Origin: a virus
Direction: 5' to 3' (one strand)
Length of the DNA: 26,506 nt
IMG/VR virus record: IMGVR_UViG_3300020430_000080
Span: 1 to 26,506 of that record
The notes below the pieces were generated by a model, which had not been told where the DNA came from, made no database searches, and worked only from the letters and a program-made list of their open reading frames with translations. A program made the position numbers and the translations under genes. Positions within the stretch are counted from its first letter, which is position 1; the number at the start of each line of letters is the position of its first letter. Shown here piece after piece: positions 23,433-25,407 of the stretch.

Positions 23433-23582
23433 ATGAGTAAAGAACAAGCGTTAGAATTATTAGTGAGTTTAGCTTATTCAGCAGAATTACCAAAAGGTTT
23501 AACAGGTGTAGAGGCTTCTAAGTATCTAAATGGTATTGCTGAAGCGGAAAAGGTTTTAAAATCTATTATTAAAAAGGATTAA
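23433..23582 (+). CDS. 49-residue protein at the head of the lysis cassette
   Basis: A short frame, MSKEQALELLVSLAYSAELP..., encoding a mostly helical soluble protein of 49 residues. It starts four bases after a perfect -7 box and its stop overlaps the next start by one base (TAATG), so translation is probably coupled to the DUF5675-type gene. Composition matches neighbouring genes. Function unknown. Confidence 0.6.
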   Translation: MSKEQALELLVSLAYSAELPKGLTGVEASKYLNGIAEAEKVLKSIIKKD

Positions 23583-24019
23583 TGGAACTTCTAATCATAA
23601 GAGATACTTACACAAGTAAAAGCACTATAGGTCGGCTTTTTATTGATGGTGTTGAGTTCTGCTATACATTAGAAGATATTGTAAGGCCTAAAGGAATAAA
23701 AGTATATGGTGAGACTGCTATACCACATGGTGAATACAGCGTCACTATGAGCTATTCTAATAGGTTTAAAGAGTTAATGCCGTTGGTGTATAATAAACCA
23801 GATTTAACCGTAAGAGATAGTAAAGGTGTCTCTTTCAGTGGTATTAGAATACATTCAGGGAATACAGCAGAACACACACATGGTTGTATTTTGTTGGGAA
23901 GTAGTAAGAGCAAAGATTTTGTAGGTAGTAGTAAGAATACTTACAAAAAGTTTTTAAAGTTGTTGGGATACTTTGATATTATAAAATTAAAAATAGTTAA
24001 CGCAAATCAAAAAGCATGA
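23582..24019 (+). CDS. DUF5675-family protein, candidate lysis factor
   Basis: A 145-residue soluble protein of the DUF5675 type: N-terminal MELLIIRDTYTSKSTIGRLF, EFCYTLED near residue 25-32, the IPHGEYSV turn near 47-54, and the signature IRIHSGNTAEHTHGCILLG (88-106). H91, H98, H100 and C102 make a His/Cys cluster that could be catalytic or metal-binding, reminiscent of the HxxGC motif of L,D-transpeptidase-fold enzymes. No enzyme activity has been assigned by me to the family. It overlaps a holin-like gene by four bases (ATGA), so a cell-wall role in lysis is the best inference. Confidence 0.7.
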   Translation: MELLIIRDTYTSKSTIGRLFIDGVEFCYTLEDIVRPKGIKVYGETAIPHGEYSVTMSYSNRFKELMPLVYNKPDLTVRDSKGVSFSGIRIHSGNTAEHTHGCILLGSSKSKDFVGSSKNTYKKFLKLLGYFDIIKLKIVNANQKA

Positions 24020-24219
24020 AAAAAGTATTAAGTAAAGTAGGGAAGTGGTTCTTAGAGTCTAATAGTGAGACGGTTATCAAGGGTATTGATACTGTTGGTA
24101 AAAACAGGTTAAATAAGAAGAAGGTTGCTTTAGTAGTTACAGCTATTTTGGCTATATTGCTTTTATGCGGTGTAATTAGTGAGGAAACTTTCATTAAATT
24201 ATTCAGCGAGATTAATTAA
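24016..24219 (+). CDS. Putative holin / small membrane protein
   Basis: A 67-residue protein with a basic N-terminal half (MKKVLSKVGKW, then GKNRLNKKKV) and one transmembrane helix at residues 36-54 (KVALVVTAILAILLLCGVI), ending in a short amphipathic segment. Size, single span and position overlapping the DUF5675-type gene (ATGA at 24016-24019) fit a holin or holin-like pore protein that releases the cell-wall enzyme. A second group of candidates is spanin-like or antiholin proteins; none is ruled out. Confidence 0.65.
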   Translation: MKKVLSKVGKWFLESNSETVIKGIDTVGKNRLNKKKVALVVTAILAILLLCGVISEETFIKLFSEIN

Positions 24220-24245: not shown

Positions 24246-24266
24246 ATCTTTCATTTTGTTTGTTTG

Positions 24267-24296
24267 CCCTCGCTTTAGTTAGCGGGGGTTTTTTTA
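24267..24296 (+). terminator. Rho-independent terminator closing the late region
   Basis: CCCTCGCT / loop TTAGTT / AGCGGGGG forms an eight-pair stem (one G-U) followed by seven T. It separates the lysis cassette from the accessory genes with their own promoters. Confidence 0.85.
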
Positions 24297-24303
24297 AAAT
24301 TTA

Positions 24304-24336
24304 TTTGCATGTATTAAAAAAATAATATTATATTTA
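24304..24336 (+). promoter_or_regulatory. Promoter for the type IX-like secreted protein
   Basis: TTTG at 24304-24307 and TATATTTA at 24329-24336, 21 bases apart, match the Bacteroidota layout with an A in place of the last G. The leader that follows is A/C-rich (AAACAAACAA) and the ATG lies 23 bases after the box. Confidence 0.65.
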
Positions 24337-24352
24337 CAGAAACAAACAAAAA
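24305..24352. repeat. 48-bp promoter/leader repeat, copy 1
   Basis: This stretch matches 25172-25219 at 45 of 48 positions (differences at 24310, 24338 and 24339). It covers the -33 and -7 elements and the start of the leader, so the expression unit itself is duplicated. Confidence 0.9.
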
Positions 24353-24359
24353 AATAGTT

Positions 24360-25166
24360 ATGAGAAATTTTATTACAGTATTATTAATTAGTGTTAAAAT
24401 AGGTTTAATTGCTCAGTGTAGTGAAGGTGATTATGTTAACCCTAGTCCTTTTCCACCTTCATTAGTTTTATTTAGTGGTGACACATTATCTTTAAGTGTA
24501 GATACTTATTTAGAGAATGTATCTATAACCGTTATGGATGGAGGTGTTATAAATATTTGTAACGGTGTTTTGTTTGATGTTAAAGGGTCTTTGTCTGTTA
24601 TGGGTGGAGGTTCTATTAATGTTTACGACTGCGGTACCAGAATAAACGTTGAAGGGTCTTATTTTGATGCTCCTTACTCTAAGGAAATAAATTGGTATTG
24701 TGGTGACTGTGGTATAGTTGAAATTTTAAGTGTTACAGGTTCTAAGTCAGGCGGTGAAGTTCAATGTTTTTCACCTCTACCAGTTGAGTTATCTTATTAC
24801 TCGTGTAATGGTAATTCTGTTGACTGGGTTACTTTATCAGAAATTAACTCAAGCCACTTCGTTTTAATGGGCTCTAATGACGCTGATTCTTGGAATGAAC
24901 TAACTACTATTGAGGCTCAAGGCGATTACGTAGGAGAAACTAAATACACCTATAAAGGAGAGTTAACTAAATACGTTAAGCTTGTTCAATATGATTATGA
25001 TGGAACCAATCAAACTTTTGATGTTAAGATGTGTGAGAACGTAAACAACAAAGGTGTAGAGATTCTTTATTATGTTAATGCTATTGGTCAAATTGTTAAC
25101 GAGAACTTTAACGGTGTTAGGTTTGCTGTTTACAGTAATGGAGAGGTAAAGAAAACTTTTAATTAA
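24360..25166 (+). CDS. Secreted protein with type IX secretion-like C-terminus
   Basis: A 268-residue exported protein. Residues 1-19 are a signal peptide (MRNFITVLLISVKIGLIAQ). Residues ~40-110 are a repetitive beta-helix-like stretch (GGVINICNGVLFDVKGSLSV). From 140 on comes LPVELSYYSCNG, then W156-T-S-E-I-N...F, the 'LPVEL-S-W-T-SE-N--F' phrase that in Bacteroidota typically precedes the sorting domain of type IX secretion (T9SS) cargo. The last ~36 residues, GVEILYYVNAIGQIVNENFN then GVRFAVYSNGEVKK, mirror the T9SS type A sorting domain (N-x-x-G-Q-x-V, then G-x-x-x-x-x-x-x-N-G-x-x-x-K). The protein is therefore expected at or outside the host surface. It has its own promoter. The function of the mature part is unknown. 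Confidence 0.75.
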   Translation: MRNFITVLLISVKIGLIAQCSEGDYVNPSPFPPSLVLFSGDTLSLSVDTYLENVSITVMDGGVINICNGVLFDVKGSLSVMGGGSINVYDCGTRINVEGSYFDAPYSKEINWYCGDCGIVEILSVTGSKSGGEVQCFSPLPVELSYYSCNGNSVDWVTLSEINSSHFVLMGSNDADSWNELTTIEAQGDYVGETKYTYKGELTKYVKLVQYDYDGTNQTFDVKMCENVNNKGVEILYYVNAIGQIVNENFNGVRFAVYSNGEVKKTFN

Positions 25167-25171
25167 AATAC

Positions 25172-25219
25172 TTGCACGTATTAAAAAAATAATATTATAT
25201 TTACGTAAACAAACAAAAA
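25172..25219 (+). promoter_or_regulatory. Duplicated promoter/leader, copy 2
   Basis: CTTG at 25171-25174 and TATATTTA at 25196-25203, followed by AAACAAACAA, copy the promoter at 24304 with 45 of 48 identical bases. It drives the 59-residue gene at 25228, whose ATG is 24 bases beyond the -7 box. The TTTG element is reduced to TTG. Confidence 0.7.
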
Positions 25220-25227
25220 CAAATAAA

Positions 25228-25407
25228 ATGAAAACAAAAGAAGAGTTACTAAATGAGTTAATTAGACAGGATGTTGAGAACTATAAGAACATTCAATTCT
25301 TTAAGACTGGGAGAAGAGAACTCCCCGCGGGTTACAGAAAAGAACTGTTAGAGATTTACGGACAGTTAAATACTCAAGGATTAAAAGAACTGCTAAAAAT
25401 AAAATAA
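25228..25407 (+). CDS. 59-residue hypothetical protein
   Basis: A short frame, MKTKEELLNELIRQDVENYK..., charged and largely helical, with a single turn around GRRELPAGYRKEL. No signal peptide or membrane segment; unlike the preceding gene it is cytosolic. It begins 24 bases after the -7 box of the duplicated promoter and ends 46 bases before the next gene. The composition (many Lys/Glu/Leu) and clean start support a real gene. Function unknown; size and charge allow a small regulator or inhibitor. Confidence 0.65.
   Translation: MKTKEELLNELIRQDVENYKNIQFFKTGRRELPAGYRKELLEIYGQLNTQGLKELLKIK

Follow-up and report, generated by a model that had tools for sequence, protein, structure and literature searches.

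A phage gene encoding a predicted exported protein with a compact C-terminal block, a candidate sorting signal for the type IX secretion system of Bacteroidota

It is already known, from reports published in 2019 and 2020, that phages may encode cargo proteins of the type IX secretion system (T9SS) of their hosts. Cryophage carries three genes for type A cargo (Nat Commun 2020, PMC7468147), whose products have canonical type A sorting domains, located in two cases on enzymes (an endoglucanase and a GH39 protein) and in the third on a protein with PA14, while ORFs encoding BACON or T9SS sorting-domain proteins have been described in crAss-like phages (Viruses 2019, PMC6949934). In the C-terminal domains (CTDs) of type A cargo a lysine close to the terminus is functionally important, and cryo-EM has shown a large folded CTD in the bound state (PMC10994853). 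For HBP35, the final 22 residues of the CTD are enough to export GFP (PMC10202324). Another minority T9SS signal, unlike types A and B, is the type C CTD (ChiA, NF033708).

Here we describe a gene of a phage, presumably one of Bacteroidota, whose product shares several properties with such cargo. Like the Cryophage proteins, for which hijacking of the host T9SS was proposed, it is the product of a variable accessory gene and bears a candidate signal for this system, but it has a block of about 38 aa in place of the canonical domain and contains no recognisable enzyme. It also resembles the crAss-like phage proteins, which are encoded near structural genes and in one case are fused to binding domains; those, however, were found by standard sorting-domain annotation and carry a different passenger. 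No description of the compact tail was found in the literature searched, outside which most subscription journals fell, and it is this tail, rather than the existence of phage-encoded T9SS cargo, that appears to be new.

The analysed stretch of DNA (the window) is a virus record of 26,506 bases. Terminase, tape measure, portal and exonuclease-like genes were recognised within these 26.5 kb, which supports the view that the gene under study, as proposed in an earlier sequence-only reading, belongs to a phage. The relatives of the portal protein are distant and come mostly from Streptomyces and Vibrio phages, and a capsid similarity search performed for host assignment gave no match. The gene (24360-25166, + strand) extends from ATG to TAA and encodes 268 aa; an identical protein is present in BFVD as entry A0A516KXX7. 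Both the ORF and all the features listed in the sequence-only reading (a signal peptide, a beta-rich body, LPVEL, W-T-SE-N...F, NAIGQIV and NGEVKK) are real. Used alone as a query, the protein sequence had no meaningful match in Pfam, NCBIfam, PHROGs or the sequences of the PDB.

The encoded protein consists, in order, of a signal peptide, a beta-rich body, a domain similar to fibronectin type III (FN3) and a short C-terminal block. A simple home-made rule, used for all calls of this kind, classes the N-terminus (MRNFITVLLISVKIGLIAQ|C) as signal-peptide-like, and the signal peptide comprises residues 1-18 (24360-24413, +), with the probable cut, judged by eye, at A18|Q19. In the AlphaFold2 model (mean pLDDT 84, alignment of 52 rows) the signal-peptide region has low confidence and the strands begin at residue 34. 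The N-terminal body, delimited by the model and the alignment (residues 34-130; 24459-24749, +), is probably solenoid-like. It is followed by the FN3-like beta-sandwich (residues 138-231; 24771-25052, +), which carries the motifs LPVEL (residues 140-144), W-T-SE-N...F (WVTLSEINSSHF, residues 156-167) and YDYDG, and by the compact block (residues 232-268; 25053-25163, +), the candidate T9SS sorting signal; NGEVKK ends three residues short of the stop.

Upstream of the gene lies an intrinsic terminator (24266-24289, +; a 9-bp stem with 6 GC pairs, followed by a T run), and directly before the start codon the first copy of a 51-nt direct repeat (24302-24352, +; TTG...TATATTTAC), which is promoter-like. 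Terminator and repeat together suggest that this is an accessory gene with transcription of its own. The second copy, 92% identical, is found directly downstream of the gene (25169-25219, +) and precedes a 59-aa ORF (25228-25407), so that each copy is placed just 5' of a start codon; the 25-nt core of the repeat has no further occurrence within the window. This repeat could represent a duplicated promoter or the scar of a gene insertion.

Several neighbouring genes deserve mention. Upstream, the gene adjoins a pair (23582-24219, +) encoding a DUF5675 protein with a weak resemblance to YkuD and a 67-aa protein with one hydrophobic stretch, possibly a lysis or wall-modifying pair. A second signal-peptide-like ORF (1097-1510, +; 137 aa, MKTRNFIAVLVLMLGAFSMVIGQ...), located beside a terminase fragment, matches no family strongly, and the phage may therefore export at least two proteins. 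A 238-aa product (1594-2310, +) has, by eye, the look of a glycosyltransferase.

Residues ~135-268 of the protein align to proteins of three huge uncultured phages (E values of 8e-7 to 9e-8), and when 50,697 phage records were searched by tblastn, matches came from only four such phages (LR756504, LR756502, LR745206 and LR756500; 462-642 kb). These four encode FN3-type exported proteins, two with short tails, and LR756500 with a long tail of the YPNP type. A scan of viral contigs with the single protein revealed no relatives, and an alignment profile was needed, with which 241 stretches encoding relatives were identified in IMG/VR. Full-length viral relatives have E values of 1e-33 to 5e-31; these values, together with those for the huge phages, indicate that the features of the protein are not due to chance. 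The three closest full-length relatives show 33-35% identity and have four cysteines in common with it; in the alignment cysteines 91, 114, 117 and 136 are kept in four full-length relatives. Given the 241 stretches and the reports cited above, the view that such a gene is uncommon in a phage cannot be upheld.

The relatives encoded by the 80 stretches that were fetched have a variable N-terminal body, then the FN3 unit and then the C-terminal block. A terminase gene, for which a match to PF03237 or a long one to phrog_2 was counted, was present in 18 of the 37 viral records tested, many of the records being fragments. Passengers recognised in the viral proteins include CUB, MAM, G8, GEVED, fn3, Ig_7, GBD_T9SS_assoc and galactose-binding-type domains; no enzyme was recognised among the passengers of the 20 viral members scanned. 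The relatives reside in otherwise unrelated phages with hardly any common neighbours: across 83 loci, one other ORF of the window had a match.

These observations bear on the origin of the gene. It might have been acquired recently from a host and play no role in the phage, since the nearest architecture is bacterial (FN3 followed by a short tail exists in proteins of Flavobacteriales) and the 51-nt repeat on either side may be the trace of an insertion. We regard this as the least probable of the explanations considered: the GC content of the gene (33.3%) and its GC3 (0.228) equal those of the phage genes (33.8% and 0.21-0.28), the closest full-length relatives are viral, and the upkeep of such genes in many unrelated phages, mostly in the short-tailed form, points to selection.

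The data also argue against a virion protein, i.e. a decoration of the tail or head. Ig- and FN3-like domains are common on phage particles, the gene is placed a few kb past structural and fibre-like genes, and the structural matches of a cellular relative include FN3 domains from tail-tip and baseplate proteins of phages. However, 79 of 84 distinct viral members passed the signal-peptide rule, as against 44 of 651 other ORFs from the same contigs, which provided the background rate. A cleavable-type signal peptide would take the protein away from the cytoplasm, the site of virion assembly, and both the terminator and promoter-like repeat before the gene and the distribution of relatives among unrelated phages with almost no common neighbours are at odds with a structural role, which we therefore consider improbable.

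The sequence-only reading had taken LPVEL together with W-T-SE-N as a mark of T9SS export. Structural alignment assigns these motifs to a domain of another kind: residues 138-231 match FN3 domains with Z values of 8-9, among them the FN3 domain of Ihog (2ic2; VIA Z 8.7, 87 residues, 3.0 A), and the match lists of the structure searches are filled by FN3 domains. A cellular relative, modelled separately (pLDDT 94), again consists of FN3 and a short block, and its FN3 domain reaches Z values of 10-12 (maximum 11.9) with FN3 domains and FN3-containing enzymes. LPVEL...W-T-SE-N...YDYDG is thus, as modelled, part of a fibronectin-III-type domain and not a sorting signal. In Bacteroidota this domain usually occurs just N-terminal of the T9SS type A sorting domain: TIGR04183 matches directly follow it, and hhalign compares it with the domain preceding canonical type A CTDs at a probability of 100%.

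The conserved C-terminal unit is not the block of approximately 70 residues that had been expected, but a separate small block of about 38 residues with the pattern KKIVKxxNxxGQEVxxxxxGxxIxxYxDGxxxK, located at or near the stop. Its model contains three strands (residues 232-268, pLDDT mostly 85-97), and the models of the phage protein and the cellular relative agree in showing, beyond the FN3 domain, a stretch of ~35 residues with 3 strands; in neither is this a seven-strand Ig-like sandwich of ~70-100 residues. The C-terminal residues matched neither TIGR04183 nor PF18962, and among 58 relatives scanned for the type A model only one matched at all (E 0.087), whereas in the same scan TIGR04183 scored 30-46 bits on canonical CTDs following the same FN3 domain. 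For types B (TIGR04131) and C (NF033708), NCBIfam yielded nothing at E values up to 10, and both were absent from the families matched by the 58 relatives. A YPNP-type motif is lacking from the protein and its short-tailed viral relatives.

Compared with type A CTDs (TIGR04183, PF18962), the block thus occupies the same C-terminal place behind the same FN3-type domain, in a protein with a Sec signal peptide, and has a lysine near its end (K264/K265, with K or R in this column in most relatives), but it has half the length, three strands instead of seven, and neither a model match nor YPNP. Profile-profile comparison of the short block with canonical CTDs was not significant (probability 3.7% and 6.8%), so that common descent with the type A CTD is not established. 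The sequence-only reading had named the lack of both a model match and a sandwich as evidence against T9SS cargo and, taken literally, this is what we found. Of the cargo interpretation, Sec export and the Bacteroidota T9SS-cargo architecture stand, while the support expected from sorting-domain models does not.

Tail length was compared in a viral sample obtained without regard to the tail. Since CTD-only alignments are too weakly conserved for scans of genome contigs, FN3 plus CTD was used there instead, and for the viral contigs the queries were cellular FN3 domains of the kind usually followed by a canonical CTD, taken on their own with no CTD. The 80 viral loci comprised 56 short tails by HMM, 13 divergent tails of the same length and 11 long ones; after clustering, 48 of 59 distinct sequences were short (34-49 aa) and 11 long (69-95 aa). 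A group of loci (L202-L208 and similar) ends in a divergent version of the short tail (YRIYDVFGRETSLDHEGVIIIVDERGKAQKILIKK), to which the tail HMM gives hardly any score, and the counts therefore probably underestimate the short-tail class. Among cellular proteins the long form predominates over the short one, a contrast with the viral sample that is not clean statistics, as the sequences are related and the phage hosts were not identified. Among the matches listed, from which the cellular counts are lower bounds, there were at least 6 full-length short forms in 149 genomes of the sampled class (1,202 FN3 matches) and at least 45 in 40 genomes of the Brumimicrobium family (376 FN3 matches). 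The short tail alone was detected in 9 of the 149 genomes of the class and in 115 of 199 genomes of the order Flavobacteriales.

Cellular copies of the block provide the best evidence that it is a T9SS sorting signal. Five proteins with an endonuclease I body (PF04231) carry the short block, and close homologues end in a canonical YPNP-type CTD instead (L277, 61% identity; L278, 57%; and more distant ones), so that the same body, in homologues at 54-61% identity, bears either tail. This apparent swap, read from sequences of genes other than the phage gene, suggests that the block can replace a canonical CTD, and T9SS export therefore remains the best reading, albeit reached by another route than originally proposed. 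In four of the endonuclease I proteins (L267, L269, L270 and L272) the block forms a sub-type, GREVxxKxNTLLIYIYSDGSREK. Short-tailed proteins of Flavobacteriales (endonuclease I, GH16 and beta-lactamase-family proteins) have the same block in the same place as the phage protein; their passengers include enzymes, whereas those of the viral members examined are binding-type domains. When FN3-linked short tails from cells were scanned, none of the T9SS models in NCBIfam gave a match.

According to a further explanation, which we consider unlikely, the protein is only exported to or anchored in the periplasm, e.g. as a superinfection-exclusion protein, and the block serves the FN3 domain as a folding cap. 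The absence of a match to any sorting model and the position of the block next to FN3 in most viral members fit this. In cells, however, the block also occurs at the C-terminus of proteins without FN3 (endonuclease I, GH16, beta-lactamase-family, LamG and LRR proteins), and hence does not act as an FN3 cap; in the endonuclease I proteins it stands where a canonical CTD would. We also considered, and rejected, the possibility that the cellular short tails derive from prophages, as the neighbours of four such loci (L088, L091, L098 and L103) are, by eye, ordinary chromosomal genes. One short-tail gene adjoins, by eye, a gene with a canonical-looking CTD at its end. SprA was found in 143 of 149 genomes of the class and 196 of 199 of the order; it is nearly universal, and its co-occurrence with the block is therefore uninformative. 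Two genomes of the sampled order (G264 and G307) have a short-tail match and no SprA match, and are either incomplete or a real exception.

Taking these results together, we consider it likely that the gene encodes an accessory protein which passes through Sec and then the host T9SS by means of the compact block and acts as a binding or coating protein. The gene would be expressed from its own promoter during infection and the protein exported by Sec via its signal peptide; the T9SS would then carry it over the outer membrane, recognising the ~38-residue block and not a type A CTD of 70-100 residues. Taking into account the export of GFP by 22 residues of HBP35, a tail of this size is plausible as a signal. 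Outside the cell or on its surface, the product may perform this role with an FN3 stalk that carries a small beta-rich body. T9SS transport, surface location and time of expression are thus all presumed, and as to purpose we can only guess: the most likely use would be to alter the surface of the infected cell, be it by adhesion, by masking receptors or by excluding competitors, a view favoured solely by the binding-type passengers.

More tentatively, the ~38-residue block could represent a compact T9SS sorting signal of a fourth class, outside types A, B and C, widespread in Flavobacteriales and dominant, perhaps owing to its shortness, on the phage cargo of this family; many Bacteroidota phages might thus export surface-binding proteins that go unannotated. 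If this is true, there is a class of exported proteins that annotation pipelines overlook, both in phages and in about every second Flavobacteriales genome sampled. A natural signal of ~38 residues would, moreover, reveal the minimum need of the translocon, on which the 22 residues of HBP35 and the large folded CTD bound in cryo-EM point in different directions. It would also mean that phages commonly remodel the surface of the infected cell via the T9SS.
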